Assembly (NCBI RefSeq): GCF_001898325.1
Contig: NZ_MKTR01000034.1
Span: forward strand, 294,597 to 358,596
Direction of reading: 5' to 3'
Origin: Microbacterium sp. 67-17
GTDB lineage: Bacteria; Actinomycetota; Actinomycetes; Actinomycetales; Microbacteriaceae
DNA length: 64,000 nucleotides
In this document: positions 14,352 through 32,515 of the stretch, one piece after another
Numbering within the stretch: the first letter of the stretch is position 1
Layout of the letters: each line of letters begins with the position of its first letter
The notes under the pieces: generated by a model
Told to the model about the DNA's origin: nothing
Database searches by the model: none
What the model saw: only the letters and a program-made list of their open reading frames with translations
Program-made: the position numbers and the translations under genes

Positions 14352-15101
14352 ATGACCACGGCTGCCGCACGGCTCGACGGACGCACTGTTCTGGTCGTCG
14401 GCGGCGCCGGGCGGCTCGGGTCAGCCATCTGCCGCGACCTACGTGCGCGGGGCGGGCGCGTCATCGTCGGCTACCGCACGTCTCGTGAGGCGGCGGACCG
14501 ACTCGCGTCCGAAATTGACGGCACCGCGGTGCGGATCGATACCGCCGACGACGCGTCGATCGAGGAAGCGTTCGCGACGATCGAGACTGCCCATGGCACG
14601 GTCGGCGTCCTCGTGGACACCGCCCACATCGCGTCCGAACCGCGCCGCGTCGCCGACCAGGGTCGGGCATTCCTCGAAGTGCACCTCGCCGCCGTGCAGG
14701 GGTACGCCGCGACCGTGCGACGCGCGCTGCCTGGGATGCAGGCCGCTGGGTGGGGTCGCATCGTCTATGTCTCGGGCGCGCTCATGTCGCGCCCCCATCC
14801 GGGCTTCGGTGCCTACGGCGCCGCCAAGTCCGCCGCGACGACACTCACCCGCTACGTCGCTCTCGAGGAGGGGCGTGCGGGCATCACGGCGAACATCGTC
14901 GCACCGGGCCGCGTGCTCGATCCGGCCGACCACCTTGATCCCGTTCAGGAGGAGCTGTCCGAGCTCCTCCTTTCGCGCACCGCGCTCGGCGCGTTCCCGA
15001 CCGCACCCGACGTCGCCGCGGTCGTGGGGATGCTCACCGTCTCTCCTCAGCTGACCGGTCAGACCGTGTGGGTCACCGGCGGCGAGCCGATCACCGCCTG
15101 A
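14352..15101 (+). CDS. Short-chain dehydrogenase/reductase
   Basis: The 249-residue SDR has the NAD(P) glycine motif GGAGRLGSAI near residue 17, a catalytic Ser in VYVSGALMS and the YGAAK active-site pair, then IVAPGRVLDPADH. It is the first gene of the 11-gene operon. Together with the flavin monooxygenase, ABM protein and flavin reductase downstream it matches the gene set of indole or indole-acetate oxidation clusters (IifB or IacE role: oxidation of a dihydroxylated indole). The substrate is inferred, not shown. ATG 14352 follows GAGAGGA; the earlier GTG at 14313 is rejected. Confidence 0.8.
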   Translation: MTTAAARLDGRTVLVVGGAGRLGSAICRDLRARGGRVIVGYRTSREAADRLASEIDGTAVRIDTADDASIEEAFATIETAHGTVGVLVDTAHIASEPRRVADQGRAFLEVHLAAVQGYAATVRRALPGMQAAGWGRIVYVSGALMSRPHPGFGAYGAAKSAATTLTRYVALEEGRAGITANIVAPGRVLDPADHLDPVQEELSELLLSRTALGAFPTAPDVAAVVGMLTVSPQLTGQTVWVTGGEPITA

Positions 15102-15117
15102 TATCGGAAGGAATCCC

Positions 15118-16362
15118 ATGACCATCATCGACGCTCCCGTCGAGACCGACCCGGTCATCGCTGGGCTGAAGACCCCCGACAGCGCAGAGGCGATCATCGC
15201 GAACATCCACGCGATCCTCCCGCTGCTGGCCGAAGAAGCCGACGAGTCCGAGCGCCTCGCCCGGCTGTCGCCGCGCGCGGCGCGCGCGTTGCGCGCGGCC
15301 GGGGCATTCCAGATGGCATTTCCGCGCAGCCGGGGCGGTGTCGAGATGTCGCTCGTCCAGCAGGTCGAGGTCACCGCGCTGGTGTCAGCGGTCGACGGCG
15401 GCATCGGCTGGAACGTCGGCGTGCTCAACGCCACGGGCTACTACGCCGGTCGCTTGAGCGACAAGGCCTACGCGGAGCTCTATCCGAGCCGCGACATGCC
15501 CACGAGCGGCGCTTTCCACCCGCGCGGCCGCGCCGACCGTGTCGAGGGCGGCTATCTCGTCAGCGGCGACTGGGGCTGGGGGAGCGGGAGTTACACGGCA
15601 GAGCACATCATCGGCGGCGCCGAGGTGTTCGCGGATGGCGAACCGGTCCTGGGTGCGGACGGCAAGCAAGTGCACCTGGGGTTCTGGCTGCCTCGTGAAG
15701 CGATCGACGTGAAGCACGACTGGCAGGTCCTGGGCGTGCGGGGCTCCGGCAGCACGTCGTACTCGATCCCGGCACCGGGCGCGTTCGTGCCCGAGCGATA
15801 CAGCTTCGACCGTGAGGCTGCGGACACCGCCGACGGGGACCCGCTGGACAAGAGCGTCGGCGTCTCCCACGTTGCATTGACGGGCGTTGCGCTGGGGGTT
15901 GCCCGCCACGCGGTCGACCTCGCTGCTGAGTACATCGGGTACCGCATGCAGAGCGCTCCGTCGAAGGTTGACGCCGCAACACGTCAGGCTCTCGGCGAAG
16001 CGATGGGTGAGGTCGACTTCGCCTATGCCGGCGTGCGCGAGGTGTGTCGGCTGACCGACCAGGTCCTCTTCGCCCCGGGGGCGAAGCTGACGGACGTGCA
16101 GCGTGCACGAATGACGGCTGCCAACGCCGTCGCAGGCGGCGCACTGCGTCGTGTCCTGAACCTCTGCACCGAACTGGCCGCAGCCAGCTACATCCTGGAC
16201 CGGAACGAGATCCAGCGCGTCGTGCGTGACGGACTGGGTGCGCTTGCCCACGCGGGCACTCGCCGCATGCACCTCGGTGCGCTGGCGACCGCGGCGATGA
16301 TGCACCCCGAGCAGGGGCGCACCGTCGCCGATGAAGCCGGCTGGGCTGCGGACGCGAAGTGA
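15118..16362 (+). CDS. Acyl-CoA-dehydrogenase-fold flavin monooxygenase (group D type)
   Basis: The 414-residue protein belongs to the HpaB/HsaA/DszC-like oxygenases of acyl-CoA dehydrogenase fold: residues 50-70 RLSPRAARALRAAGAFQMAFP, then VDGGIGWNVGV, YLVSGDWGWGSGS and a C-terminal helical bundle with the HxGT-like AHAGTRRMHLG. It would take reduced flavin from a partner, and a reductase is coded at 20443. In context it resembles IifC/IacA, which oxygenate the indole ring, but a hydroxylase for another aromatic is equally possible. SD GGAAGGA precedes ATG 15118, 16 bases after the SDR. Confidence 0.8.
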   Translation: MTIIDAPVETDPVIAGLKTPDSAEAIIANIHAILPLLAEEADESERLARLSPRAARALRAAGAFQMAFPRSRGGVEMSLVQQVEVTALVSAVDGGIGWNVGVLNATGYYAGRLSDKAYAELYPSRDMPTSGAFHPRGRADRVEGGYLVSGDWGWGSGSYTAEHIIGGAEVFADGEPVLGADGKQVHLGFWLPREAIDVKHDWQVLGVRGSGSTSYSIPAPGAFVPERYSFDREAADTADGDPLDKSVGVSHVALTGVALGVARHAVDLAAEYIGYRMQSAPSKVDAATRQALGEAMGEVDFAYAGVREVCRLTDQVLFAPGAKLTDVQRARMTAANAVAGGALRRVLNLCTELAAASYILDRNEIQRVVRDGLGALAHAGTRRMHLGALATAAMMHPEQGRTVADEAGWAADAK

Positions 16363-16691
16363 CCACCCCCATGCTCCCTGGCAGTGAACGGGTGCGAGTC
16401 GTCGTCGAGAAGATCGACGAGATGCGCGGCTCCGGCCGCGTCGGAGACAGCTTCGAGGTCAATGGCACCGCCCTGACTCTGCCCCCGGGAGGGACCTTCT
16501 GCCCCGAGGCGCTTGCGGTTGTTCTCCCTATCGTCGTGATGCGCCAGTCTCCGTTGCCGGCCGATAGCTGGCTCATCCGGAAGCCCTGGATCTGTGGCGC
16601 CGACGCACGAGAGAACCTCGTCATGCGCGTCGAGGGCCTCGATGCTGACGAGCAAGAATCCACTGAGCCGGGAACGGAGGTAACCGAGTGA
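16359..16691 (+). CDS. TIGR04076-like small protein, copy 1
   Basis: The 110-residue protein has the VRVVVEKIDEMRGSGRVGDSFEV opening and FCPEALAVVLPIVV segment of the TIGR04076 group: a short strand, a GDxFEV turn, a cysteine before a helix, then a conserved proline-rich strand. Function of the group is unknown. GTG 16359 overlaps the monooxygenase stop (GTGA). The next gene is a shorter paralogue, so the pair may form a heteromer. Confidence 0.6.
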   Translation: MTTPMLPGSERVRVVVEKIDEMRGSGRVGDSFEVNGTALTLPPGGTFCPEALAVVLPIVVMRQSPLPADSWLIRKPWICGADARENLVMRVEGLDADEQESTEPGTEVTE

Positions 16692-16969
16692 GTGCTCGCA
16701 GAATCAGATGCACCGTCACTTCGATGAACTACTCGGCCTGCGGGATGGCAGTCGGCGACTGGTTCGAGGTCGGCCCTGAAGGTTTCAGCATGCCGGACGG
16801 GCAGCACTTCTGCTACTTCGCGATTGCATCCGTCTTGCCGCTGATCAATGGGCCCCTGGGTAAGGACGACGTGGACGGGTGGTTCGATTCCAAGCCGGTC
16901 GTTCAATGCCCCGACCCGCCTGAGGCACTGCGGATGACGCTCTCCCACGCGCCAGAGGTGACCCCGTGA
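16688..16969 (+). CDS. TIGR04076-like small protein, copy 2
   Basis: The 93-residue paralogue of the preceding protein shares VGDWFEV, the FCYFAIASVLPLI cysteine-helix stretch and a closing WFDSKPVVQCPDPPEALRM strand. GTG 16688 overlaps the previous stop by four bases, as does its own stop with the next gene, so stoichiometric translation is likely. Two adjacent diverged copies inside an oxygenase operon suggest an accessory role, which is inference. Confidence 0.6.
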   Translation: MSARRIRCTVTSMNYSACGMAVGDWFEVGPEGFSMPDGQHFCYFAIASVLPLINGPLGKDDVDGWFDSKPVVQCPDPPEALRMTLSHAPEVTP

Positions 16970-17973
16970 GCCGTGATGCCACCTTTAGTGTGCGCATAGG
17001 AGCCTCCGTCGGCGTGCGGGAGATGGCCGATCGCGCCGTCTTCGCCGAAGAGCTCGGGTTTGACCAGGTGTGGACAGGCAACGACGTCTTCGGCGCACCG
17101 GGTCTCGTCCAGCTCGCCGCGATCGCGATGCGCACCAGCCGCATCAGGTTCGGCTCGGGCGTCATGGACCCTGTCACCGTGCACCCGGCCCAGATCGCGC
17201 AGTACGCCTCGGGGCTGCAGGACCTGTCTGGCGGCCGGTTCCTTCTGGGCCTGGGCGCCGGCTCCGAGGTGTTCTTCTCGTGGGCAGGCATCACGCCCGA
17301 CAAGCCCGTCATCCGTACGCGCGAGGCCGTCATCGCGATCAAAGAACTCGTGGCCGGTCGCTCGCCCGCAGGCGTGCCCGGCGCGGGTGAGGGGTGGACC
17401 CCGAACGCGCTCCTCAAAGATCCCCGGCCGACGCCGGTCTATGTCGGTGCGCTCGGTCCGAGGATGATCGAAATGACCGGCCGCTACGCCGACGGCGCGC
17501 TGCCGCTGTGCCTGCCCCCGACACACGTGTTCAACGTCATGCGCCAGCTTGAGGTCGGTGCCGCCCGCGCGGGCCGGGTGGTCGAGGACCTGGATGTCGC
17601 CGCCTGTGTCTGGGTGTCGATTGACGACGATCGGGATGCGGCCCGGCGCCTCATGGCCCACCACATCGCCGAGTACAGCGGATCGCTCTCAACCGAGGCG
17701 CTCCTGGCCAACGGCCTCGATCCCGAGGAGTTCGCGCGTACGCAGGGGCTCATGACCGAGGGCCGGGTGGAAGATGCGGTCGCGTCGGTCTCCGACGACA
17801 TGATGAGCCTTGGCATCGTCGGCGGCATCGAGGACGTCATCGATCAGTGCGGCGCCCTCATCTCTGCCGGTGCGCGGCACCTGTCCTTTGGGCCTCCGAT
17901 GGGGCCTGACGGGCCCGCTGCCATGAAGCTGCTCGGCGAACGCGTCCTGCCCGAGCTGCGCCGCATGCTCTGA
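16966..17973 (+). CDS. LLM-class flavin/F420-dependent oxidoreductase
   Basis: The 335-residue protein has the bacterial luciferase-like barrel: FAEELGFDQVWTGND, then TSRIRFGSGVMDPVTVHPAQIAQ, LLGLGAGSEV and PTPVYVGALGPRM. It is closest in character to the methylene-tetrahydromethanopterin-reductase-like branch, many of whose members use F420. With fgd 4.7 kb away, an F420H2-dependent reduction in the pathway is a testable idea, but FMN use cannot be excluded. GTG 16966 overlaps the previous stop. Confidence 0.78.
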   Translation: MSRDATFSVRIGASVGVREMADRAVFAEELGFDQVWTGNDVFGAPGLVQLAAIAMRTSRIRFGSGVMDPVTVHPAQIAQYASGLQDLSGGRFLLGLGAGSEVFFSWAGITPDKPVIRTREAVIAIKELVAGRSPAGVPGAGEGWTPNALLKDPRPTPVYVGALGPRMIEMTGRYADGALPLCLPPTHVFNVMRQLEVGAARAGRVVEDLDVAACVWVSIDDDRDAARRLMAHHIAEYSGSLSTEALLANGLDPEEFARTQGLMTEGRVEDAVASVSDDMMSLGIVGGIEDVIDQCGALISAGARHLSFGPPMGPDGPAAMKLLGERVLPELRRML

Positions 17974-18007: not shown

Positions 18008-18304
18008 ATGCTCTACGTCTACGGCGGAATCCTCGTCGACCCGGCTCGGAAGGACGAGGTGACCGCAAAGGCCGCAGAGTTCGCGGCAGCCTGCCGCGCC
18101 GAGGACGGCTGCGTCGAGTACAACCTGTCCTGGAACGTCGAGGACGAGAGCTACTTGCGTCTGATCGAGGTCTGGGAGCCGACTGAGTCGCACCGTGCGC
18201 ACATCCAGCAGCCGCACGTCCTCGAGTGGACGGCCTTCATCCAGGGTGCCGCCGCGGCCCCGCCCGCCTTCACGAAGTACGTCGTCGACGTCGTCGAGGA
18301 CTGA
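18008..18304 (+). CDS. Antibiotic-biosynthesis-monooxygenase (ABM/YgiN) domain protein
   Basis: The 98-residue protein is a single ABM ferredoxin-like domain: [16 protein letters not shown], then [19 protein letters not shown] and [20 protein letters not shown], the usual pattern of YgiN-like quinol monooxygenases. Small ABM proteins occur in indole and indole-acetate degradation clusters. AAAGGA precedes ATG 18008. It lies between the LLM enzyme and tryptophan dioxygenase. Confidence 0.8.
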
Positions 18305-18353
18305 TCGTGCACGCTGGCGAACCTGCTGCGCACGCTACGAGAGGGGAAGCGGT

Positions 18354-19211
18354 ATGACCGTCGAGTCGAACACTCGCGAGCTCGAATCCGAGATCGTGAC
18401 CGATCTCAAGGAGAAGCTCACCTACGGGTCCTACTTGCAGCTCGATCAGGTGCTCTCTGCTCAGCAGCCGCTCAGCAGTCCCGAGCACCACGACGAGATG
18501 CTCTTCATCATCCAGCACCAGACCACCGAGCTGTGGCTGAAGCTGTTGCTCCACGAGCTGTGGGCAGGGTGTGCCGCGCTCGCCGCCGACGACCTCGGCG
18601 ACGCACTGAAGAAGATCGCGCGGATCAAGCACATCCAGCGGTCGATGATCGAGCAGTGGTCGGTGCTGGCGACGCTCACACCGACCGAGTACGCGCAGTT
18701 CCGCGGCACCCTGGCCAACTCGTCGGGCTTTCAGTCCGCGCAGTATCGCGCTGTCGAGTTCCTGTTGGGCAACAAGAACGCCAAGATGCTGCGGGTGTTC
18801 GAGGGTGAGCCCGAGAACGCTGCGATGCTGACGGATGCGCTGGAGGCGCCGAGTCTGTACGACCAGTTCCTGCGCTATCTCGCGCGCCACGGCCACGCCG
18901 TCCCGCAGCGACTGCTCGACCGGGACGTGACGGTCGCTCACATCTTCGACGACGAGCTGTGCGACGTGCTCACCGCGATCTACGAGAACGCGGAGGAGCA
19001 CTGGGAGGAGTACGAGGCCTGTGAGGAACTCGTCGACCTCGAAGACAGCTTCCAGCTGTGGCGCTTCCGGCACCTTCGGACGGTGCAGCGCACGATTGGT
19101 ATGAAACGCGGCACCGGCGGCTCGAGCGGGGTCGGTTTCTTGCAGAAGGCGCTGGAACTGACCTTCTTCCCCGAACTGTTCGAGGTGCGAACAAGGATTG
19201 GACAGCCATGA
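18354..19211 (+). CDS. kynA: Tryptophan 2,3-dioxygenase
   Basis: The 285-residue heme enzyme converts L-tryptophan to N-formylkynurenine. Family landmarks are all present: the [12 protein letters not shown] helix with active-site His55, [19 protein letters not shown], and the C-terminal WRFRHLRTV with heme-ligand His240 followed by [11 protein letters not shown]. His55 and His240 coincide with the numbering known for the Xanthomonas enzyme. GGGGAAG precedes ATG 18354; the longer frame from 18195 overlaps the ABM gene and is rejected. The stop overlaps kynureninase by four bases. Confidence 0.96.
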
Positions 19212-20446
19212 CCGTGGCCCTTCACGACGCGGCGACGCTGGATGCCGTCGACCCGCTCGCCGCATACCGTGACGCGTTCGTCGCCGCCGACGACGAGAGC
19301 ATCGTCTACCTCGACGGCAATTCGCTGGGGCGCCCGCCGCTCGCCGTCGCCGACCGGATGACCCAGTTCATCACCGAGAGCTGGGGGACGCGTCTGATCC
19401 GCGGGTGGGACGAGGGCTGGTTCGAGGCCCCGCTCGAGATCGGTGACCGTCTCGGCCACCTCGTCCTGGGCGCAGCGCCCGGGCAGACGATCGTTGCCGA
19501 CTCGACGACCGTCTCGCTGTACAAGCTCATCCGTGCGGCGCTCGCAGCCAGACCCGATCGCTCGCGCATCGTCATCGACCGGGCGAACTTCCCGACCGAT
19601 CGCTACGTCGTGCAAGGGATCGCCGCCGAGACCGGCGCCCAGGTCGATTGGATCGACACCGACCCGGCGACCGGCGTCACGGTGGCCGATGTCGCTGCCG
19701 TGCTCGGACCTGACACGGCCGTCGTCGTGCTCAGCCACATCGCCTACCGCTCGGGTTACATCGCCGACATCCCCGCGATAACCGCGGCCACGCATGCCGC
19801 AGGGGCCGTCGTCGTGTGGGATCTGTGCCACTCAGCCGGGGTGCTCCCGCTCGAGTTGGACGCTTGGGGGGTCGACTTCGCCACCGGATGCACATACAAG
19901 TACCTCAACGGTGGGCCAGGATCACCGGCGTTCCTCTACGTGCGCGCAGAGCACATCCCGACGGCTGTGCAGCCGATCCCCGGCTGGATGGGAGTCAAGG
20001 ACTCCTTCCTGATGGGGCCGGACTACCAGCCTGCTGACGGCATTCGGCGCTTCATCAGCGGGACGCCTCCGATACTCGCGATGATGCCGCTGTCGGTCTC
20101 GTTGGAGATCATCGAGCAGGTCGGTATCGACGCGATCCGCGAGAAGTCCATCGCCCTGACCGACTATGCGATCGAACTCTACGATCAGATCCTCGCCGCA
20201 CTTGGGGTCACGTTGTCCTCGCCCCGAGAAGCGGACGTGCGCGGGGGGCACATCACAGTCGATCATCCGGAGTTCCCGGTGCTTATCTCAAGTCTGTGGG
20301 AGCGCGGCGTGATTCCCGACTTTCGACCCCCCACCGGCATCCGGCTGGGGATGTCTCCGCTATCTACCTCGTTCACCGAGGTGCGACGGGCTATCGTCGC
20401 CATCGGTGAAGAACTGATCGCTCGCACCGAGAGGAGCAACCTGTGA
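19208..20446 (+). CDS. kynU: Kynureninase
   Basis: The 412-residue PLP enzyme cleaves kynurenine to anthranilate and alanine. Motifs include [11 protein letters not shown] at the N-terminus, [17 protein letters not shown], the PLP ring aspartate and following histidine in WDLCHS (Asp205, His208) and the Schiff-base lysine in [11 protein letters not shown] (Lys231). Length is normal. No kynurenine 3-monooxygenase is present nearby, so anthranilate rather than 3-hydroxyanthranilate is the expected product. ATG 19208 overlaps the kynA stop. Confidence 0.96.
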
Positions 20447-20943
20447 CGCTGAAGCGAGAGCTTCCCGACCCGCAGCTGCTGCGCCAGACGTTTGCCCTGT
20501 TCCCCTCGGGTGTGGCCTGCATCGGCGCCGTGGTGGACGGAGCAAATGAGGCGCTCGTCGCCTCGTCGTTCACCGTCGGAGTGTCGCTGGATCCACCTCT
20601 GGTCTCCTTTGCTGTTCAGAACGGATCGCAGACCTGGCCGATCGTCCGGCGCGCCGCGAGCATCGGGATCTCGGTCATGGCATCCGACCACGAGCCGTAC
20701 GCGCGCAAGATCGCGTCCAAGGACCGCGCTCATCGATTCGACGGTGTCGACACCCACGTCGCAGAGTCGGGTGCGCTATTCCTGATGGGCTCTCCGGTGT
20801 GGTTGGAGTGCTCGATCTACTCCGAGTTCCCCGCGGGTGACCACCACATGGTGCTGCTGCAGGTTGATGGCCTGGGGCTCAACCCCGAGCTGAACCCGCT
20901 CGTCTTCCACCGGTCCGGCTTCCGTTCGATGCAGGAGGATTGA
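20443..20943 (+). CDS. Flavin reductase (HpaC-like)
   Basis: The 166-residue protein is a flavin-reductase-like split-barrel: FALFPSGVACIGAVVDG, then ASSFTVGVSLDPPLVSFAV, and AGDHHMVLLQV near the end. It would reduce FMN or FAD with NAD(P)H for the two-component monooxygenase at 15118, which has no other reductase in the operon. GTG 20443 overlaps the kynU stop by four bases. Confidence 0.85.
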   Translation: MTLKRELPDPQLLRQTFALFPSGVACIGAVVDGANEALVASSFTVGVSLDPPLVSFAVQNGSQTWPIVRRAASIGISVMASDHEPYARKIASKDRAHRFDGVDTHVAESGALFLMGSPVWLECSIYSEFPAGDHHMVLLQVDGLGLNPELNPLVFHRSGFRSMQED

Positions 20944-20948
20944 CCCGA

Positions 20949-21734
20949 GTGCACGTGCTCGATCGGCCCGGCCCGGCCCCAGACCGCACGCTGCACTATG
21001 ACCCCCGGCCCGCTGCGGTCGTCGAGGTGTTCGATCCGCCGCACGCGTCCGCGGGGCTTGCGATCCTCCTTCATGGAGGTTTCTGGCGCGCCGCTTATGA
21101 CCGGACGTATCTGCGGGGGATGGCGGCAGCGTTGGCGGCGCAGAACGGCATCATGGTGGCCCTTCCGGAGTATCGCCGAGTGGGAGAACCAGGCGGCGGC
21201 ATCCCCGGGACTCTCGCCGATGTCGCCGAGATCCTTCAGCGGGTGCCGGGACTGCTCGGCGCCGCAGAGTCGGACGTCGTCGTCGCGGGACACTCGGCAG
21301 GCGGTCATCTGGCATTGGTCGTAGCCGCTGACATCCCCCGCCCACCCCGGCGCGTCGTCTCCCTCGCCGGGGTGCTGGACCTCGCAGCCGCGCACGACGC
21401 GCGCCTGTCGAACGGGGCAGTTGCGGCGCTGCTCGGTGAGAGCGAGCCATCGGAGGCACAGGTGGCCGCGATTGACCCGCTCCGACGCGCGGTACCACCG
21501 TGTGAGATCGTGCTGCTTCACGGCGATCGCGACGACGAGGTGCCGGTGGCATACTCCCGCGCCTACCGGCGCAAGGCTCCGGACGCGGAGCTGATCGTGC
21601 TGCCGGGAGCCGATCACTATGACGTTATCGATCCCCGCTCGGAGGTCTTCTCCCGTGTCGCGAGCGCGATCGCCACTTCGCCATTGAACCCTGAGGTGGG
21701 AGGATCTTTCAATGACCACGTTGGTGAACGTTGA
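20949..21734 (+). CDS. Alpha/beta hydrolase, probable kynurenine formamidase
   Basis: The 261-residue serine hydrolase has the oxyanion motif HGGFW (His42), nucleophile elbow GHSAGGHLAL (Ser116), an Asp in LLHGDRDDEVPV and His in GADHYDV. HGG(F/Y)W plus the position beside kynA and kynU fits arylformamidase, which turns N-formylkynurenine into kynurenine plus formate. A longer frame would use TTG 20940 overlapping the reductase stop, but GGAGG spacing favours GTG 20949. The formamidase role is contextual. Confidence 0.78.
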   Translation: MHVLDRPGPAPDRTLHYDPRPAAVVEVFDPPHASAGLAILLHGGFWRAAYDRTYLRGMAAALAAQNGIMVALPEYRRVGEPGGGIPGTLADVAEILQRVPGLLGAAESDVVVAGHSAGGHLALVVAADIPRPPRRVVSLAGVLDLAAAHDARLSNGAVAALLGESEPSEAQVAAIDPLRRAVPPCEIVLLHGDRDDEVPVAYSRAYRRKAPDAELIVLPGADHYDVIDPRSEVFSRVASAIATSPLNPEVGGSFNDHVGER

Positions 21735-22668
21735 CAATTTTGCTCTCGCTGAGACTCATCGGATGATGGGGGCCCTGCAGTCGGACGCGGGGGGTGTCAA
21801 CCGGTTCCTGCACAATCGGGAGCCCGCTGCGATCGACAAGCAGACCGTGATCCGGCTCAATCGGGACACGTTGTACAGCTTCGCCGTCGTCGACATCAGC
21901 GCCGGGGCCACATTAACGATCCCCGCACACGGTGACCGGTATCTGTCAGCGATGGTGGTGAACGAGAACCACTACGTCAACGCGATCTTCCACGACGCTG
22001 GCGAGTATCGCCTGACGCAGGAGCAGTTCGATACACCTCATGTCGGGATCGCGGTGCGCGTCCTCGTCGATCCGATGGACCCGCACGACGTGGCGGCCGT
22101 GGCCACCATCCAGGATGGGATCACGCTGGTAGCCGACTCGTCGAACCCGTTCGAAGCGCCCGCGTACGATACGACCAGTCTCGACGAAACGCGCGCGGCG
22201 CTGCTCTCGCTGGCGCGCAACCTGACAGGGTTTGATCGCATGTTCGGCAGTGCTGAAGAGATCGACCCTGTGCGTCACCTGATCGGCACCGCCGCGGGTT
22301 GGGGAGGGCTTCCCTCGAGCGAAGCGAGCTACATCGGCGTCGACCCGCGTCTGCCCGTCGGGCAGTACGAGTTGACCGTCGGAGACGTTCCGGTCGATGG
22401 GTTCTGGTCGATTTCCGTCTACAACGCCGACGGGTTCTTCGAACCCAACGAACGTGGCGCGTACACGATCAACAACATCACCGGTACCCGTAACGACGAC
22501 GGCACGACCACGGTCCGATTCGGTGACTACCCGGCCGATGTCCCCAACGTGATTCCGATCACCGACGGCTGGAACTACCTCGTGAGGCTGTACCGTCCGC
22601 GGCAAGAGGTCCTCGACGGGGACTGGACATTCCCCACGCTCACCACTGATACCGATCCCCTCGCCTGA
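21712..22668 (+). CDS. DUF1254/DUF1214 domain protein
   Basis: The 318-residue protein carries an N-terminal DUF1254 signature (IRLNRDTLYSFAVVDIS) and C-terminal DUF1214 (VDGFWSISVYNADGFF, then AYTINNITG). Such proteins are widespread in actinobacteria and proteobacteria; their activity is not established. No signal peptide is seen, so it is cytoplasmic here. GGGAGGA precedes ATG 21712, inside the end of the hydrolase gene (23-base overlap). Last gene of the operon. Confidence 0.8.
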   Translation: MTTLVNVDNFALAETHRMMGALQSDAGGVNRFLHNREPAAIDKQTVIRLNRDTLYSFAVVDISAGATLTIPAHGDRYLSAMVVNENHYVNAIFHDAGEYRLTQEQFDTPHVGIAVRVLVDPMDPHDVAAVATIQDGITLVADSSNPFEAPAYDTTSLDETRAALLSLARNLTGFDRMFGSAEEIDPVRHLIGTAAGWGGLPSSEASYIGVDPRLPVGQYELTVGDVPVDGFWSISVYNADGFFEPNERGAYTINNITGTRNDDGTTTVRFGDYPADVPNVIPITDGWNYLVRLYRPRQEVLDGDWTFPTLTTDTDPLA

Positions 22669-24134: not shown

Positions 24135-24157
24135 TGTCTTCCAGATATCGAGGTCTC

Positions 24158-25033: not shown

Positions 25034-25818
25034 CCATGACAGCATCGTCGACCGCTCCCGTGGTCCGCGTCTTCGACATGGACAAGTGGTACGGCAACAC
25101 CCAGGTGCTCTACAACATCGACCTCGAGGTCGCCGCGGGGGAGACGGTGTGCCTGATCGGGCCCTCGGGCTCAGGCAAGAGCACGCTGCTGCGGTGCATC
25201 AATCACCTCGAAGAGATCAACACGGGTTCGGTTGAAGTGCTCGGCGATCTCATGGGATACCGCCTGCAGCGAGGGCGCCTGCATGAGTTGCATGAGCGGG
25301 ATGCTGCAGAGCAGCGCACGCGCGTCGGGATGGTGTTTCAGCACTTCAACCTGTTCCCGCACATGACCGCGATCGAGAATGTGGCGCTGGGGCCGATAAA
25401 GGTGAAGAAGGAGAGTCGGACCGAAGCGCGGGAGTACGCGCGTGAGCTGCTCGGCCGCGTCGGGCTATCCGGCAAGGAAGAGCATTACCCGTCGCAGCTC
25501 TCGGGTGGACAGCAGCAGCGCGTGGCGATTGCGCGAGCAATGGCGATGCGGCCGAAAGTGATGCTGTTCGACGAACCCACGAGCGCCCTCGACCCTGAGC
25601 TGGTCGGAGAAGTGCTCGCGGTGATGAAGGACCTCGCTTTGACGGGCGGTATCACGATGGTCGTTGTCACTCACGAGATGGGTTTCGCGCGGGAAGTCGC
25701 CGACCGGATCGTCTTTATGGATGGCGGTCGCATCGTGGAGCAGGGGCCGCCGTCGCAGGTCCTCGATTCTCCAACAAGCGACCGGACCAGGGCGTTCTTG
25801 GCGGCTGTGCTGCACTGA
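25030..25818 (+). CDS. Amino-acid ABC transporter ATP-binding protein
   Basis: The 262-residue ATPase has Walker [11 protein letters not shown]-loop [10 protein letters not shown], signature LSGGQQQR, Walker [15 protein letters not shown] and the switch His in VVVTHEMGF, all typical of GlnQ-like polar amino-acid importers. It also has an insertion between Walker A and the Q-loop ([20 protein letters not shown]) seen in part of this subfamily. ATG 25030 or 25036 may be used. A strong terminator follows. Confidence 0.95.
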
Positions 25819-25903: not shown

Positions 25904-25919
25904 GAAACGTGATCGTTAC
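25904..25919. promoter_or_regulatory. Palindromic operator candidate before the CoA ligase operon
   Basis: GAAACGTGATCGTTAC is an almost perfect palindrome of two GWAACG half-sites (GWAACG-N4-CGTTWC). It lies 80 bases before the ligase start and shares half-sites with the other promoters of the catabolic block. Confidence 0.5.
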
Positions 25920-25998
25920 ATGCCAGAAAGATGACGGGCGTCACAAGCGCGATATGCTGCGAAGGCATCATTACCCACCCCTGCCGAGTCGAGGTGAC

Positions 25999-27324
25999 AT
26001 GGACACGTTCCCGTACTGGAACCCGAAGACCGAGACGCTGTCGCGCGGGGACCTGCGTTCCCTCCAGCTGGCGAAGCTTCGCCGCGTGGCGGACTGGGCT
26101 TTCGCGCGCAGCCCCTTCTACCGCCGCACCTTCGCGGCCGCCGGCTTCTCGCCCGACCAGCTCCGCACCTGGGACGACGTTCAGCGCATCCCGTTCCTGA
26201 CCCGCGAAGAGTGGATGCAGAGCCAGGCCGATCACCCTCCCTATGGCGAGCTCCCCGTCGCCGGTGATGACGTAGCGATCCGGCTTCACACCACGAGCGG
26301 GACGAGCGGCAAGCAGCCCTTGCGCGCTCTGGACTCGCGGAAGGACTGGTCCTGGGCCGCCGAGATGTGGTGCTACGCGCTGTGGGGAGCGGGCGTGCGG
26401 TCGCATGACATCGGATATGTAGCCTTCGGCTACGGATCCTTCATCGGATTCTGGGGGCTGCACAACGGCCTCGAGAAGATCGGTGCCCTCGCGATCCCCG
26501 GCGGCGCGCAGACCACCGCGGCGCGGGTCAAGCAGATCGTCGACTTTGGCGCCACGGTGGTGGCCTCCACTCCGACGTACGCCCTGCGCATGGCCCAGGA
26601 GGCTGAGATCCTCGGACTCGATCTGCGCTCGTCGCCCGTGCGGATCGTGATCCTCTCGGGCGAGCCGACGCCGGCAGCCACCCGTGACCTCATCGAGGAG
26701 CAGTGGGGGGCGAAGGTGTTCGACACTGCCGGGATGACGGAGATCTCGACGATCTTCATGTTCGAGCCTGCGGACCAACCAGGTGGGTGCCACATCATCG
26801 AGGACCACTTCATTGAACAGGTGGTCGATCCCGACACCGGAGCAGAGATGCCCTACGGCGAAGCGGGTGAGCGCGTGACGACTTCGTTCGGACGCAGCAT
26901 GATCCCGCTCCTGCGCTACCGCACCAAAGACCTCGTCGTGAAACTGCCGCATACCGCCGCCACGAACGGGCGCACGTGGGACCTCTACGAAGGTGGCATC
27001 ATCGGCCGCGTTGACGACATGAAGCTCGTGCGCGGAACGAACGTGTACCCGCGCGCCATCGAAGGCATCGTTCGTCAGTTTCCCGAGGTCGACGAGTTCC
27101 AGGTGGAGATCACCCGCGAAGGCATCCGCGACGAGATCACGCTCCATGTGGAGACCATTGACACCTTCGGTGACGCCGGCTGGAACGACCTCGAACGCGG
27201 TCTGCGCACCGAACTGGCCGATGCTCACGAGGGACTGCGCTTCCTCATCCGCCGACGCGCCGCCGGAGAGCTCCCACGGTTCGAGCTCAAGGCGCGCCGA
27301 CTTCACGACCTGAGACCCGTCTGA
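25999..27324 (+). CDS. PaaK-like aryl-CoA ligase, probable 2-aminobenzoate-CoA ligase
   Basis: The 441-residue adenylate-forming enzyme has the PaaK layout: FARSPFYRRTFAAAG at the N-terminus, P-loop-like LHTTSGTSGKQP, FDTAGMTEIS, LLRYRTKDLV and the C-terminal GRVDDMKLVRGTNVYPRAIE with PRFELKARR. It activates an aromatic acid with ATP and CoA. The fused oxygenase downstream and the anthranilate-producing operon upstream suggest anthranilate. GAGGTGA decides for ATG 25999 over the longer frame (25909). Confidence 0.85.
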   Translation: MDTFPYWNPKTETLSRGDLRSLQLAKLRRVADWAFARSPFYRRTFAAAGFSPDQLRTWDDVQRIPFLTREEWMQSQADHPPYGELPVAGDDVAIRLHTTSGTSGKQPLRALDSRKDWSWAAEMWCYALWGAGVRSHDIGYVAFGYGSFIGFWGLHNGLEKIGALAIPGGAQTTAARVKQIVDFGATVVASTPTYALRMAQEAEILGLDLRSSPVRIVILSGEPTPAATRDLIEEQWGAKVFDTAGMTEISTIFMFEPADQPGGCHIIEDHFIEQVVDPDTGAEMPYGEAGERVTTSFGRSMIPLLRYRTKDLVVKLPHTAATNGRTWDLYEGGIIGRVDDMKLVRGTNVYPRAIEGIVRQFPEVDEFQVEITREGIRDEITLHVETIDTFGDAGWNDLERGLRTELADAHEGLRFLIRRRAAGELPRFELKARRLHDLRPV

Positions 27325-27565: not shown

Positions 27566-27991
27566 ATGACCGACAAGACCGTCCCCGTCGTGACCAGGGC
27601 TGGTCACCTCTACGAGGGAACCGCCAACTCTGGCGGCGCACACCGCGCGTCGGGAGTCAGCCCGCAGCACACCCCCGCAACCCGCATCTGGTTCGGGCGA
27701 GTCAGCAATGAGCCGGGATTCCGATCGCTGCCTCACCACCACGGCGAGGCCGAGACGGGAGGCTACGTGCTGGCCGGTTCGGGGCGCATCTACTTCGGCG
27801 ACGGCTACCGCGAGTGGCTCGACATGACAGCTGGAGACTTCGTATTCGTGCCGCCGTTCATGCCGCACGTCGAGGCGAACATGAGCACCACCGAGGAGCT
27901 TGTGTGGCTCACCGCCCGGACACCGGACAACATCGTCGTCAATCTTCCGGATGTGCCTGACGACACGCTCGACGGGTTTCGGCGCGCGTGA
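27566..27991 (+). CDS. Single-domain cupin protein, candidate ring-cleavage dioxygenase
   Basis: The 141-residue protein has both cupin motifs: HHHGEAETGGYVLAGSG (His57-His59) and GDFVFVPPFMPHVEAN (His101), so a metal site is likely. It is much shorter than gentisate dioxygenases (about 350 residues, two cupins) but in the range of single-cupin dioxygenases. In context it could open the ring of a hydroxylated anthranilate; a non-catalytic or isomerase role is also possible. AAAGGAACCCGC precedes ATG 27566. Confidence 0.7.
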   Translation: MTDKTVPVVTRAGHLYEGTANSGGAHRASGVSPQHTPATRIWFGRVSNEPGFRSLPHHHGEAETGGYVLAGSGRIYFGDGYREWLDMTAGDFVFVPPFMPHVEANMSTTEELVWLTARTPDNIVVNLPDVPDDTLDGFRRA

Positions 27992-28845
27992 GTGAGGCGT
28001 CCGGGTTCCTCGCCGCCGTCGCGCTGAGCGAGGACGGTACGGGATTCACGGCGCGCACCCAACCCGTGCCCTGGCCCAAGTCATACGGTGGCGATCTGCT
28101 CGCGCAGGCCGCCGCCGCCGCGACGCGCACCGTCGCCGACGACCGTGCGCTGCATGCCATCCATTCCCTGTTCGTCGCGCCCGCGACCGTGGGAGCCGTA
28201 CTGCGCTACGACGTGGAGACGCTCCGTAACGGACGCTCGTACTCGTCCCGGCGAGTCACCGCGACCGAGGACGGCCGGGTCGTGCTCAGCGCGTTGGCAT
28301 CGTTCCATGTCGGGGAGGACTCCCCGCGCGTCGCCGCGACGCCCCAACCCGCCCCCGCCCCCACCGAGCTTGCCGACGCGCGAACCCGGGCCCAGGGAGC
28401 TCCCGCCGAGGTCGTCGACTACTGGGCGGACGGGCGCAGTTTCGAGCTGCGCCACGTCGGCCCCGACAGCTACGTGAGTGACGGGGCCGCGCCCGGGCCG
28501 GCCGAGGTGCGGCTGTGGCTGCGCGCCCTGGACGGTCTGGGGGAGGACCCGGCGCTGCACAGGCTCGCGCTCGTCTACGTCTGCGACTACGCGATGCTCG
28601 AACCCGCGCTGCGGGCTCAGGGATGGGCATGGACCGATCCTGGCCTTGCCACGGCGAGCCTTGACCACTCGCTGTGGCTGCACGAGGACGCGCGTCTGGA
28701 TGACTGGCTGCTGTGCGAGCTCCGCCTGGTCTCGCACAGCAACGGACGCGCCCTCGTGGAGGGCGAGTTCTTCACCGCGGACGGGGTTCATGTCGCCTCG
28801 GTCGCCCAACAGGGGATGATCCGGCGGCTCTCCGCCGCATCCTGA
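27988..28845 (+). CDS. TesB-type acyl-CoA thioesterase
   Basis: The 285-residue protein is a double hotdog of the thioesterase II family: LLAQAAAAATRTV, HAIHSLFVAPATVGAVLRYDVETLRNGRSY-type first domain, and LDHSLWLHEDARLDDWLLCEL in the second. It would release a free acid from an aryl- or ring-opened CoA ester, an unusual step if the pathway stayed on CoA thioesters to the end. GTG 27988 overlaps the cupin stop. Confidence 0.85.
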   Translation: MSEASGFLAAVALSEDGTGFTARTQPVPWPKSYGGDLLAQAAAAATRTVADDRALHAIHSLFVAPATVGAVLRYDVETLRNGRSYSSRRVTATEDGRVVLSALASFHVGEDSPRVAATPQPAPAPTELADARTRAQGAPAEVVDYWADGRSFELRHVGPDSYVSDGAAPGPAEVRLWLRALDGLGEDPALHRLALVYVCDYAMLEPALRAQGWAWTDPGLATASLDHSLWLHEDARLDDWLLCELRLVSHSNGRALVEGEFFTADGVHVASVAQQGMIRRLSAAS

Positions 28846-28864: not shown

Positions 28865-31243
28865 GTGCGCATCGCCGTCATTGGCGGAGGCCCGGGAGGC
28901 CTGTACTTCTCCGCCCTCATGAAGCAGCTCGACCCCGCCCACGAGATCACGGTGTGGGAACGCAACGCCGCGGACGACACGTTCGGGTTCGGCGTCGTGT
29001 TCAGCGACGAGACGATCGACGGCATCCGCGCCGCCGACCCTGACATGTTCTCGGGAATGGCCGCCGAGATGGCGCGATGGAGCGAGATCGACGTCCACGT
29101 CGGCGGCGACACGCATCGCGTCGGGGGCCAGGGCTTCTCGGCGCTCAGCCGCAAGCGACTGCTGCAGCTGTTGCAGGCGAGGTGCGCGGCGCTCGGCGTC
29201 ACGATGCACTTTGCCACGACCGCGCCCGACGTCGAGGAACTCCAGCGTGAGTACGACCTCGTGGTCGCCTCCGACGGCCTCAACTCCCGCACCCGCCAAC
29301 GCTGGCCCGAGGGCTTCGGCGCTTCACTGGATCCGCGGAAGTCGAAGTACATCTGGCTCGCACTGGACCGCCCATTCGAGGCATTCACCTTCATCGTCAG
29401 GGACACGCCGTTCGGGCGGATGCAGGTGCACGGCTACCCGTATTCGTCGACCGAGAGCACCTTCATTGTCGAGATGCATCCCGACGTGTGGGAGCGCGCC
29501 GGCTTCGCCGCCTGGGACGATCCCGCACTGCCGCCCGGCAGGAGCGACGAGCGCTCGATCGCCCGTATCGCCGAGCTGTTCGCCGACGAGCTCGACGGGT
29601 CCCGGCTGCTGGCCAACAACTCCCGTTGGCTCACGTTCACGACCGTCCGCAACGAGCGCTGGCATCGCGGCAATGTCGTCCTGGTGGGGGATGCCGCGCA
29701 CACGGCGCACTTCTCGATCGGGTCGGGGACGAAGCTCGCCCTCGAAGACGCCCTCGCCCTGGCAGCCGCCATGAGCGAGAACGACTCCGTCGACACGGCG
29801 CTGGAAGCATACGATGCGCAGCGCCGACCTGTCGTGCTGTCGCTGCAGCGCGCTGCGCAGGCGAGCCTCGAGTGGTTCGAGAATATTGGACAGTACGTCG
29901 ACCAGGATTCGCTGCAGTTCTCCTTCAACCTCATGACCCGCAGCCGGCGCATCACGCGCGACAACCTGGAGCTGCGCGACCCCGCGTTCGCGACAGCCAT
30001 GGACCGCCACTTCGCCGCCGGCGTCGACGGCGGACGCGTCGCGCCTGCCATGTTCCAGCCGATCCGCATCGGTGAGCTCGAGCTTGCCAACCGCATCGTC
30101 GTCTCGCCGATGGACATGTACAGCGCGACGGATGGCCTCGCCAACGAGTTCCATCTCGTGCATCTGGGCTCGAAGGCACTCGGAGGTGCAGGCCTGGTCA
30201 TGACCGAGATGATCGGCACATCGCCCGAGGGTCGCATCACACCGGGGTGCACGGGTCTCTACACGGATGAGCAGACCGTAGCCTGGCGGCGGGTCGTGGA
30301 CTTCGTGCACGACCAGTCGGATGCGAAGATCGGCGCGCAGCTGGGTCACTCGGGCCGCAAGGGTTCCACGCGACTGATGTGGGAGGGGATCGACGATCCT
30401 CTCGAAGACGGAGCGTGGGAGCCGATCGGGCCGTCGGCCCTACCGTACAAGGAGGGCAGCATTCTCCCGCGCCCACTCGACCGTGCCGGCATGGATGCGG
30501 TCATCGCGGAGTTCACCACCGCCGCTCAGCGGGCGGATGCCGCGGGCTTCGATCTGCTCGAGATCCACGCCGCCCACGGTTATCTTCTGTCGTCGTTCCT
30601 GTCCCCGCTGAGCAATGCGCGCACCGACGGCTACGGCGGGTCGCTCGAGAACCGTCTGCGTTTCCCGCTCGAGGTCTTTGACGCGGTGCGAGCGGTGTGG
30701 CCTGCGCGAAAGCCGCTCACCGTCCGGCTCTCGGCGGTTGATTGGGCCGAGGGCGGCAATGATGTGGATGACGCCGTGGCGATCGCGACGGCGTTCATCG
30801 ACCACGGAGCTGCGGCCATCGACGTGTCCAGCGGCCAGGTCGTGGGCCATGAAACTCCGCAGTTCGGGCGCAGCTACCAGGCGCCTTTTGCTGACGCCAT
30901 CCGCAATCGGGTCGCGGCAGCCCGCGGGGTCCCGGTCATCGCCGTCGGTGCGATCTCGTCGTACGACGATGTCAACTCCCTGCTGCTGGCAGGTCGAGCC
31001 GACCTGTGCGCACTCGGTCGCACCCACCTCTACGACCCGCAGTGGACCCTGCACGCCGCCGCCGAACAGGACTACCGCGGGGACGGCGTCGCGTGGCCAC
31101 TCCCGTTCCGCGCGGGGCGCCGCAAGCCCCCGGTGTCTCGCACCGACGCGGTCCGCCCGCGCCTCATGCTCCGCGCGGCAGCTGCCGATACCCCCATTCC
31201 CGCGCGCTGGCGCCCCGCCGCGCCCGTCGTCGTCACACTTTAG
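28865..31243 (+). CDS. Fused FAD monooxygenase/OYE-type reductase (2-aminobenzoyl-CoA monooxygenase/reductase or salicylyl-CoA 5-hydroxylase family)
   Basis: The 792-residue fusion joins an N-terminal class A flavin monooxygenase (GGGPGG at 7-12, ASDG with Asp137, GDAAH at 275-279) to a C-terminal old-yellow-enzyme barrel from about Met396 (FQPIRIGELELANRIVVSPM, QLGHSGRKGS around His495, HAAHGYLLSSFLSPLSN). This architecture is known from 2-aminobenzoyl-CoA monooxygenase/reductase of Azoarcus and bifunctional salicylyl-CoA 5-hydroxylase. It hydroxylates, and may then reduce, the aryl-CoA ring. The kyn operon favours anthraniloyl-CoA. GTG 28865 follows GAAGGAGCAC. Confidence 0.9.
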   Translation: MRIAVIGGGPGGLYFSALMKQLDPAHEITVWERNAADDTFGFGVVFSDETIDGIRAADPDMFSGMAAEMARWSEIDVHVGGDTHRVGGQGFSALSRKRLLQLLQARCAALGVTMHFATTAPDVEELQREYDLVVASDGLNSRTRQRWPEGFGASLDPRKSKYIWLALDRPFEAFTFIVRDTPFGRMQVHGYPYSSTESTFIVEMHPDVWERAGFAAWDDPALPPGRSDERSIARIAELFADELDGSRLLANNSRWLTFTTVRNERWHRGNVVLVGDAAHTAHFSIGSGTKLALEDALALAAAMSENDSVDTALEAYDAQRRPVVLSLQRAAQASLEWFENIGQYVDQDSLQFSFNLMTRSRRITRDNLELRDPAFATAMDRHFAAGVDGGRVAPAMFQPIRIGELELANRIVVSPMDMYSATDGLANEFHLVHLGSKALGGAGLVMTEMIGTSPEGRITPGCTGLYTDEQTVAWRRVVDFVHDQSDAKIGAQLGHSGRKGSTRLMWEGIDDPLEDGAWEPIGPSALPYKEGSILPRPLDRAGMDAVIAEFTTAAQRADAAGFDLLEIHAAHGYLLSSFLSPLSNARTDGYGGSLENRLRFPLEVFDAVRAVWPARKPLTVRLSAVDWAEGGNDVDDAVAIATAFIDHGAAAIDVSSGQVVGHETPQFGRSYQAPFADAIRNRVAAARGVPVIAVGAISSYDDVNSLLLAGRADLCALGRTHLYDPQWTLHAAAEQDYRGDGVAWPLPFRAGRRKPPVSRTDAVRPRLMLRAAAADTPIPARWRPAAPVVVTL

Positions 31244-31253
31244 GAGCCCCGAC

Positions 31254-31664
31254 GTGCACCAGCTCATCAACCCTCCCTCGCTCGCTCGGCCGTCGGGCTT
31301 CGCCCATGCGGTCGTCGCCGGGCCCGGGGCATCCGTTCACCTCGCGGGTCAGACGGCGATGACCGCCGACGGCGCGATCGTGTCGGGCGGCATCGTGGCG
31401 CAGTTCCGGCAGTCGTTCGGCAACCTGCTGGATGCCCTCGCAGCGGCTGGCGGACGTCCCGAGGACCTCGTGAGCGTCACGATCTACCTGACCGACATCA
31501 GCGATTACCAGGCGCACGGACGTGAGATCGGCGCGATCTGGCGCGAGCTCGCAGGTGCCCACTACCCCGCGATGGCCGGCATCGGCGTCACCGGGTTGTG
31601 GCAGCCGGAAGCCATGATCGAGATCGCCGGCGTCGCGGTGCTCGCCGGCCCGGAGGGCGTGTGA
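31254..31664 (+). CDS. RidA/YjgF-family protein lacking the deaminase arginine
   Basis: From GTG 31254 (TAGGAG upstream) the 136-residue protein has the RidA fold: HLAGQTAMTADG, QFRQSFGNLLDALAAAGG, VSVTIYLTDI and YPAMAGIGVTGLW. In enamine-deaminase members the segment reads PAR; here it is PAM (Met107), so the substrate-binding Arg is missing, as in the Rid4-7 groups. The role is therefore open: enamine handling in the anthranilate pathway is attractive, but classic imine deaminase activity is not supported. Confidence 0.82.
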   Translation: MHQLINPPSLARPSGFAHAVVAGPGASVHLAGQTAMTADGAIVSGGIVAQFRQSFGNLLDALAAAGGRPEDLVSVTIYLTDISDYQAHGREIGAIWRELAGAHYPAMAGIGVTGLWQPEAMIEIAGVAVLAGPEGV

Positions 31665-32515
31665 GGCTCGCGACGATTCGGACGGCGGGGCTCACGCGCG
31701 CCGTGCGCGTCGACCCCGGAGCCGATGCTGCCATCGAGATCGACGGAGCCGGCGATCTCGGTGAGCTCCTGAGCGACCCGGACTGGCGGGCGAGGGCGGC
31801 GGGCGCATCGGGTCGCGTTCACACGCTGTCGGCCCTTGCGTCGACGGACTATGCTCCGGTGGTCGTTCGTCCTGGCAAGATCGTGTGCGTCGGCCTGAAC
31901 TATCGCGAGCACATCCTCGAGATGGGCCGGGAGCTGCCGACGCATCCGACACTGTTCGCGAAGTACGCCGAGGCGCTCATCGGTGCGGGAGACGACATCC
32001 TCATCCCTCGAGAAGCGGCCGACACCGTGGACTGGGAGGGCGAGCTCGCCGTCGTCGTGGGGCGACCGCTGCGCCACGCCTCGACGGCGCAGGCGGCCGA
32101 GGCGATCGCTGGCTTCACCGTCATGAACGATGTGACCGTGCGGGCGTACCAGTACCGCACGACGCAGTGGCTCCAGGGGAAGACGTTCGAATCCTCGACC
32201 CCCCTCGGCCCGGTGCTCGTGACCGCCGACGAGCTCCCGGCGCGGGCCCATGTCTCGACCACGGTCGGTGAGACACGCCGCCAGCACGCATCCATCGACG
32301 ATCTCGTCTTCTCGCCGGCGGATCTTCTTTCGTACATTTCGAGGATCGTGACGCTTCGGCCGGGCGACGTCGTGGCCACGGGCACGCCCGGAGGCGTTGG
32401 GCATGCGTCAGAGCCTCCCGAGCACCTCGCCGATGGCGAACGCGTAACAGTCACCGTGGACGGCATCGGGAGTGTGTCGAACCGCCTCCGAATCCTCGAT
32501 GTCGGGGGAATCTGA
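31661..32515 (+). CDS. Fumarylacetoacetate hydrolase family protein
   Basis: From GTG 31661 (overlapping the RidA stop) the 284-residue protein has the FAH core: KIVCVGLNYREHILEMG, the metal-binding DWEGELAVVVG (Glu126, Glu128), GFTVMNDVTVRAYQ and DVVATGTPGGVG. Members hydrolyse or decarboxylate ring-cleavage products such as fumarylpyruvate, maleylpyruvate or oxohexenedioates. Last gene of the CoA operon, so it probably acts on the ring-opened product. Confidence 0.9.
   Translation: MRLATIRTAGLTRAVRVDPGADAAIEIDGAGDLGELLSDPDWRARAAGASGRVHTLSALASTDYAPVVVRPGKIVCVGLNYREHILEMGRELPTHPTLFAKYAEALIGAGDDILIPREAADTVDWEGELAVVVGRPLRHASTAQAAEAIAGFTVMNDVTVRAYQYRTTQWLQGKTFESSTPLGPVLVTADELPARAHVSTTVGETRRQHASIDDLVFSPADLLSYISRIVTLRPGDVVATGTPGGVGHASEPPEHLADGERVTVTVDGIGSVSNRLRILDVGGI

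Follow-up and report, generated by a model that had tools for sequence, protein, structure and literature searches.

How is the ring of anthranilate opened, once it has been attacked as a CoA thioester, by an operon that carries none of the beta-oxidation genes of the described route? The question is raised by a 64,000-nucleotide stretch of Microbacterium sp. 67-17 (called the window in what follows; 67% G+C, genome of 3.14 Mb), in which ORF calls and family scans delimit a block at positions 14313-32515 with all named genes on the plus strand. A preliminary description of this DNA, which let the block begin at 14352 and not at 14313, had listed kynA, kynU, a formamidase-like gene, a PaaK-like ligase, a fused aryl-CoA monooxygenase/OYE protein (ACMR), a cupin, a TesB thioesterase, a RidA-like protein and a FAH hydrolase. 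All these genes were found again here, so that the observation is confirmed, and the interpretation that went with it is partly supported. We give about an even chance to the reading of the block as an operon for tryptophan/anthranilate catabolism in which the lower half of the 2-aminobenzoyl-CoA pathway takes another form. Somewhat less probable is the precise chemistry that we propose, in which a carboxylate-blind RidA-type hydrolase would be followed by a small cupin that oxygenolytically opens a non-aromatic cyclic beta-oxoacyl-CoA to an acylpyruvoyl-CoA, from which TesB and FAH would release succinate and pyruvate. The lower route is a variant of a known pathway and is widespread in Actinomycetota. 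The genes on which the argument turns are the following.

12362..13270, plus strand: PaaX-type regulator, upstream of the block (TIGR02277, 133.4 bits, below the cutoff of 264.6)
18195..19211, plus strand: kynA, tryptophan 2,3-dioxygenase, family match from residue 70 of the ORF (TIGR03036, 383.3 bits, just below the cutoff of 390.7)
19058..20446, plus strand: kynU, kynureninase (TIGR01814, 269.7, cutoff 246.4)
20940..21734, plus strand: alpha/beta hydrolase, possible N-formylkynurenine formamidase by position (PF20434 and others)
25909..27324, plus strand: PaaK-type aryl-CoA ligase, putative 2-aminobenzoyl-CoA former (family scans)
27566..27991, plus strand: small cupin, putative ring-opening enzyme (PF07883, 5.1e-11)
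27988..28845, plus strand: TesB-type acyl-CoA thioesterase (TIGR00189, 172.5 bits, below the equivalog cutoff of 292.9; PF13622 and PF20789 above cutoff)
28865..31243, plus strand: ACMR fusion, N-terminal monooxygenase and C-terminal OYE domain (NF006101/PRK08255, 1157.5 bits, cutoff 1078)
31254..31664, plus strand: RidA-like protein, putative enamine-CoA deaminase (Met107 in place of the canonical Arg)
31598..32515, plus strand: FAH-family hydrolase, putative acylpyruvate cleavage (PF01557, 2.2e-65; best PDB chain 6j57, 3.1e-73)

The last 4 bases of the cupin gene belong to TesB as well, and there is a further overlap between the RidA and FAH ORFs; the true start of FAH probably lies near 31661, where the alignment with 6j57 begins. 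Query proteins from clusters of the beta-oxidation type (beta-type), i.e., ECH, acyl-CoA dehydrogenase and 3-hydroxyacyl-CoA dehydrogenase, gave no match in the 64-kb window at E<=1e-5, which bears out the earlier remark that the block is devoid of beta-oxidation genes and speaks against such genes being hidden elsewhere in the window. At 14.4-15.1 kb, weak SDR matches correspond to the block's own SDR, and a distant acyl-CoA dehydrogenase is encoded outside the block on the minus strand (34151-35269). The minus-strand genes adjoining the block (34151-39200), which encode this acyl-CoA dehydrogenase, a BPD_transp_2 permease and an adenine deaminase, are probably a separate set, perhaps a purine-related one.

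The core of the block recurs in many actinobacterial genera, beyond what chance would give. We compared 85 loci around ACMR homologues, 80 on genome contigs and 5 on plasmids, 73 of them with full flanks; of 258 confirmed matches to the ACMR of the window, the 80 best supplied the genome-contig loci, a choice that favours the cupin type. In the full-flank loci, RidA (73/73), TesB (71/73), the cupin (70/73) and FAH (68/73) are found together with a PaaX-like regulator (70/73) and a ligase of the type encoded by plasmid pAL1 of Arthrobacter sp. Rue61a (68/73). Cupin and TesB genes are adjacent in 64 of the 70 loci that have both, FAH and cupin genes in 61 of 68, and the order RidA(-), FAH, cupin, TesB, ligase, ACMR is kept in 54 of the 73; neighbouring genera are related, so that Fisher values computed on loci overstate their independence. 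The gene set, of which the preliminary description knew no account, is not unique: dozens of loci share its core, and Herbiconiux and a Rhodococcus plasmid have most of the block. Within the genus the block is sporadic, since none of the 12 same-genus genomes in a sample of 297 genomes of the order carries a full-length ACMR; the window's genome has one copy. TesB and FAH were discarded as markers for such profiles, being present in 266/297 and 179/297 genomes, respectively.

The relation between this module and the beta-oxidation genes was examined in 117 loci (at least 11 kb, ACMR of at least 600 bits, the window itself excluded), presence being defined as a tblastn match above 100 bits (150 for acyl-CoA dehydrogenase, 70 for RidA) to proteins of the window, of pAL1 or of beta-type clusters. 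Eighty-four loci have at least two of the cupin, TesB and FAH genes and neither ECH nor acyl-CoA dehydrogenase, 21 have both ECH and acyl-CoA dehydrogenase with no gene of that trio, and no locus is mixed; the remaining 12 comprise three with one beta gene, two with one gene of the cupin module and seven with neither. The beta-type loci were partly chosen (plasmid matches, cupin-negative genomes) and a few rows may be counted twice through same-species loci; because of this sample bias 84 and 21 do not express a frequency, and only the absence of mixing counts. RidA is found in 83/84 cupin-type and 19/21 beta-type loci. Judged by gene content, two interchangeable lower modules are swapped behind one head, to which RidA appears to belong.

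The same pattern is seen in other samples. Among 11 annotated proteobacterial plasmid stretches, ACMR occurs with SDR, ECH and acyl-CoA dehydrogenase in 10 (Roseivivax L140 has no ECH) and with RidA in 10 (the exception, L116, is itself an incomplete stretch). In the 297 genomes of the order, full-length ACMR is present in 21 and a RidA-like protein (E<=1e-20) in the same 21, while the cupin is present in 18 of these and in one other genome; two of the three ACMR genomes without cupin have SDR/ECH/acyl-CoA dehydrogenase clusters and the third, assembled in short contigs, has RidA beside SDR. In two genomes of this order (G004 and G023), ACMR, RidA, a pAL1-type ligase and PaaX are accompanied by ECH and acyl-CoA dehydrogenase and not by the cupin. 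Of 16 stretches from genomes of the class, seven have ECH and acyl-CoA dehydrogenase (all seven with RidA), three are of the cupin type and six have neither pair, and one genome (G488) provides a natural pair, with a beta-type and a cupin-type ACMR at separate loci (L154, L155). In a sample of 246 genomes of the class, ACMR was detected in 37 and the cupin (E<=1e-20) in 15, most ACMR genomes of this sample being without cupin; seven of the 15 cupins reach 64% identity or more, all seven with ACMR, and the other eight, at 38-46%, include two with ACMR. In the ACMR tree (56 rows, L118 left out for its length, midpoint root for drawing), the 13 plasmid beta-type rows (12 proteobacterial, one from Gemmatimonadota) form one side; within Actinomycetota, three rows of the beta type diverge below the majority of the cupin-type ones, with the long-branched cupin-type L124 outside them.

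The window's ACMR is a full-length fusion (PF01494 and PF00724, NF006101 spanning residues 1-766), 67% identical to that of pAL1. Its catalytic OYE residues H568, H571 and Y573 are intact in 56/56 aligned ACMRs, and the product should therefore be a dearomatised enamine. In the chemistry published for Azoarcus, ACMR yields 2-amino-5-oxocyclohex-1-ene-carboxyl-CoA, a cyclic enamine (as cited in PMC3534580). The earlier proposals that anthranilate is activated as a CoA ester and that the ring is hydroxylated at the thioester level are both supported. NCBIfam names the fusion salicylyl-CoA 5-hydroxylase/oxidoreductase, an automatic name which our comparison suggests may mislead for fusions of the ACMR kind.

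The canonical active-site Arg of the RidA-like protein is absent in 109/109 cluster proteins (Met in 103, Leu in five, Ser in one) and kept in 4/5 displayed PDB relatives. We take this Arg to bind a free carboxylate, so that its loss fits a thioester substrate. Being common to both cluster types, RidA should serve a step shared by them, and a cyclic enamine is of the class of substrates on which Rid proteins act. The likely substrate of the RidA-like protein is thus the cyclic enamine-CoA expected as the ACMR product of both cluster types, and not a ring-opened amino-dienoate.

In the window and in L032, L097 and L124, a PaaK-type ligase replaces the usual anthranilate-CoA ligase; apparently one ligase subfamily has been exchanged for another. 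Both this ligase and the gene order of the window recur in Microbacterium album (L032) and M. excoecariae (L097), and L124 comes from a genome of the same taxonomic order. An overlooked second anthranilate ligase was rejected, the best match to the pAL1 ligase in the genome being only 35% identical. We propose that the PaaK-type enzyme forms 2-aminobenzoyl-CoA.

Taken together, these elements suggest the following route. KynA, the alpha/beta hydrolase and KynU would convert tryptophan into anthranilate, which the PaaK-type ligase would activate to 2-aminobenzoyl-CoA. ACMR would hydroxylate the latter at C5 and reduce the ring with its OYE half, giving 2-amino-5-oxocyclohex-1-ene-carboxyl-CoA, and the RidA-like protein would hydrolyse this enamine to 2,5-dioxocyclohexane-carboxyl-CoA (the ester of a C7H8O4 acid) and ammonium. 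Using O2, the metal-binding cupin would then split this cyclic beta-oxo thioester between C1 and C2 to 2,4-dioxopimeloyl-CoA, from which TesB would release 2,4-dioxopimelate (succinylpyruvate), to be split by FAH, acting as an acylpyruvase, into succinate and pyruvate. The computed atom balance of the route is correct. Acylpyruvates are a substrate class of FAH hydrolases; the one proposed here is saturated and would thus require no cis-trans isomerase. Such an enzyme was not found in the block, in contrast to the gentisate clusters. If true, the proposal describes a new mode of ring opening, in which three small genes replace the beta-oxidation half of the 2-aminobenzoyl-CoA pathway in many Actinomycetota; it offers the conserved trio cupin/TesB/FAH for a gap in the pathway, places RidA at a shared step and lends itself to single-enzyme tests. 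The preliminary description was right to call the lower route unusual: in the parts consulted of PMC3534580, PMC4539516, PMC6221969, PMC9613470, PMC10005059, PMC6449761 and PMC9007349, all from the openly readable literature, the cupin/TesB/FAH route is not described, and subscription papers or supplements may discuss it.

The cupin has a metal-binding set of three His and one Glu (H57, H59, E63 and H101), invariant in alignments of 81 and 51 rows. In FAH, E147, E149 and D178, presumably the metal ligands, are conserved at 100%, and H105 and E108, which we take to be the lid His-Glu pair, at 99% (74 rows). Attempts to read the function of the cupin from sequence or fold were given up, as there was no specific relative among the matches listed: quercetinase (3.9e-4) is a weaker match than oxalate decarboxylase, the fold comparison, which ranks oxalate decarboxylase first and quercetinase among the weaker matches, does not fix the chemistry, and a profile comparison with two gentisate dioxygenases was not informative (2% probability). 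Dke1 and acireductone dioxygenase are not among the chains listed for the cupin by sequence or fold, which excludes nothing. Cupin paralogues, 55-58% identical, are encoded in L122 (13107-13544, genome G285) and L123 (14330-14788, genome G114), where they and FAH homologues lie, in the absence of a fused ACMR, next to genes for acyl-CoA carboxylase, acyl-CoA dehydrogenase and MaoC, with two stand-alone OYE proteins also nearby in L123; this cupin/FAH pair perhaps serves a second ring or beta-oxo pathway. Other cupin genes lie in or near the proteobacterial ACMR clusters L114 (12538-12990) and L140 (12915-13367); they gave no match to the window's cupin in a tblastn scan, and the Ruegeria one of the two has relatives in 4/73 actinobacterial loci, at up to 148 bits.

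The head of the pathway has published support in Rue61a, whose plasmid pAL1 carries homologues of RidA, FAH, cupin, TesB, ACMR and PaaX. Anthranilate-CoA ligase activity and CoA-ester masses have been reported for this strain, its anthranilate-grown cells containing anthraniloyl-CoA and the CoA esters of C7H7NO3 and C7H8O4 acids, the latter tentatively named cyclohexanedione-carboxyl-CoA by the authors (PMC3534580).

Several observations weigh against the route that we propose. According to the same source, a mutant of Rue61a that has lost pAL1 is able to grow on anthranilate, cells grown on oxoquinaldine showed no anthraniloyl-CoA, and the strain converts 5-hydroxyanthranilate cometabolically (PMC3534580), so that the CoA esters of Rue61a are not attributable to the pAL1 module; moreover, C7H8O4-CoA could form without RidA. 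Within our own comparison, FAH is missing near 5/73 and the cupin near 3/73 full-flank ACMR genes, three ACMR loci (L144, L145 and L148) have neither module nor RidA nearby, four others (L067, L109, L140 and L153) have RidA and neither module, and in Leucobacter the cupin, of only 44-47% identity, is not adjacent. The closest relative of the window's cluster, L032, has no kynA or kynU in its flanks, and the substrate of the PaaK-type ligase is deduced. For the cupin, oxalate decarboxylases are the closest solved proteins, both by sequence (E 1.7e-6 and 8.9e-6) and by fold (E 7e-5), and its predicted model, which matches cupin folds, is of middling quality (pLDDT 75.4, pTM 0.70). The reactions of cupin, TesB and FAH are inferred from family and chemistry, and that of RidA is argued from comparison; the order of these four steps is likewise a deduction. 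Free 2,5-dioxocyclohexanecarboxylate would tend to decarboxylate, so that the order given above for TesB and cupin is tentative.

Three other explanations were weighed against this route. The preliminary description had TesB free a hydroxyanthranilate, taken here as 5-hydroxyanthranilate, or a gentisate-like acid from the hydroxylated CoA ester, the cupin open the ring, RidA handle the resulting amino-dienoate, which we read as deamination, and FAH cleave the product, which would be an acylpyruvate. The gene families would allow this, and 5-hydroxyanthraniloyl-CoA is reported as an ACMR product when NADH is limiting, C7H7NO3-CoA and the cometabolic conversion in Rue61a pointing the same way (PMC3534580); a sequence from anthranilate through 5-hydroxyanthranilate to gentisate has also been proposed in Nocardia opaca (PMC4539516). 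The intact OYE site of all aligned ACMRs and the presence of RidA in beta-type clusters fit it less well, however, and Rue61a does not grow on 5-hydroxyanthranilate, gentisate or salicylate, which uptake could explain (PMC3534580). In the window's genome there is no match to the gentisate 1,2-dioxygenase model TIGR02272 at E<=0.001, nor was the 3-hydroxyanthranilate 3,4-dioxygenase family found, and routes through either dioxygenase were therefore set aside; in the block, no isomerase was found. Clusters that combine CoA activation with gentisate do occur in the same taxonomic order, a point in favour of this scheme, and they are built differently: L126 (genome G183) combines FAH and ligases with a gentisate dioxygenase (TIGR02272, 7.7e-81, below cutoff) and with a monooxygenase akin to ACMR that has no OYE domain, and L127 (genome G114) encodes a gentisate dioxygenase (2.2e-82, below cutoff), an isomerase, ligases and FAH, a monooxygenase-only match (residues 2-412) from the search of this genome falling in the same stretch. 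We regard this earlier scheme as unlikely, and its order and intermediates are probably wrong.

We hold equally doubtful a hydrolytic variant that follows ACMR and RidA with an O2-independent opening of the cyclic beta-oxo compound to 4-oxopimelate, by FAH or some other hydrolase; TesB would take off CoA, and the cupin would serve as a decarboxylase, a tautomerase or an accessory protein. The kinship of the cupin with oxalate decarboxylases speaks for it, and FAH-family members cleave beta-dicarbonyls; FAH enzymes nevertheless prefer diketo acids, and a cupin kept in nearly all full-flank loci with four invariant metal ligands suits a core catalytic step. It is still less probable that in this genome the substrate of ligase and fusion is some other acid, for instance salicylate or, by way of the upper block, an indolic acid, with kynA and kynU as mere neighbours. 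The NCBIfam name of the fusion, the replaced ligase and the core of L032 without kynA and kynU favour this view; against it stand the 67% identity with the pAL1 fusion, the OYE-less relative used by the two gentisate clusters, the amino group that a RidA-type step implies in the substrate, and the position of kynA and kynU, which in the window share a gene run with the module and in L030 and L051 lie close to it. The preferred reading thus remains oxygenolytic opening of the non-aromatic beta-oxoacyl-CoA by the cupin.

The other genes of the block are an upper set and a transporter.

14313..15101, plus strand: SDR oxidoreductase of the upper block (Pfam/NCBIfam)
15118..16362, plus strand: HsaA-type flavin monooxygenase of the upper block, acyl-CoA-dehydrogenase fold (NF045629, 111.4 bits, below the cutoff of 450)
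16359..16691, plus strand: TIGR04076-like small protein (26.6 bits, cutoff 33)
16966..17973, plus strand: luciferase-like oxidoreductase (PF00296, 1.1e-56)
20443..20943, plus strand: flavin reductase (PF01613, 6.3e-28)
21712..22668, plus strand: DUF1254/DUF1214 protein (family scan)
23062..25818, plus strand: polar amino-acid-type ABC importer (binding protein, permease, ATPase; family scans)

The upper block (14313-22668), with its HsaA-type monooxygenase, flavin reductase, luciferase-like oxidoreductase, SDR and TIGR04076 protein, accompanies kynA/kynU in the window, in Herbiconiux (L051) and on the Rhodococcus plasmid (L030), where it largely recurs; the DUF1254/DUF1214 protein has no relative among the 85 loci compared. 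The preliminary description had called the block indole-type, which we retain as a suggestion based on the monooxygenase at 15118-16362, a relative of the solved 3-HSA hydroxylase (5.9e-27) and of XiaF (2.6e-17). As for its formamidase-like gene, an alpha/beta hydrolase is present and is assigned as a formamidase by position alone, no curated model naming it.

Four known systems can be set beside the window. The clusters L126 and L127, which presumably resemble the sdg salicylate route, have in common with it activation by CoA, a protein related to the monooxygenase domain, a FAH-family hydrolase and, in L126, PaaX-like regulators. They differ in that this related protein is devoid of OYE, as in the sdg-type pathway with its stand-alone monooxygenase, whereas the window's enzyme is a fusion. 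A mycothiol maleylpyruvate isomerase and a gentisate 1,2-dioxygenase are encoded in both, along with a DHB-adenylate-synthase-like ligase and a protein resembling acetate-CoA ligases, while RidA, TesB and the small cupin gave no match in these stretches. Dke1, acireductone dioxygenase and quercetinase are, like the enzyme that we propose, cupin metal enzymes splitting C-C bonds of dicarbonyl-type substrates, the first two differing from the window's cupin in being absent from the chains listed for it, with its set of three His and one Glu. The pAL1 cluster of Rue61a has homologues of the module in a strain that grows on anthranilate via CoA thioesters; it differs by its ligase family and by an upper route from quinaldine and not from tryptophan, and its published account, in the parts consulted, ends at the cyclohexene- and cyclohexanedione-CoA (PMC3534580). 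Finally, the Azoarcus evansii-type beta pathway, with a similar layout in L112-L116, L137-L139, L142 and L143, has ACMR, an AMP-binding ligase in most stretches and a RidA-like gene in 9/10 (the tenth being L116), and its described route dearomatises the ring first and opens it afterwards. It is regulated by a MarR-type protein in place of the PaaX type of the window, and it encodes SDR, ECH and acyl-CoA dehydrogenase in 10/10 stretches, often with 3-hydroxyacyl-CoA dehydrogenase, where the window has cupin, TesB and FAH.

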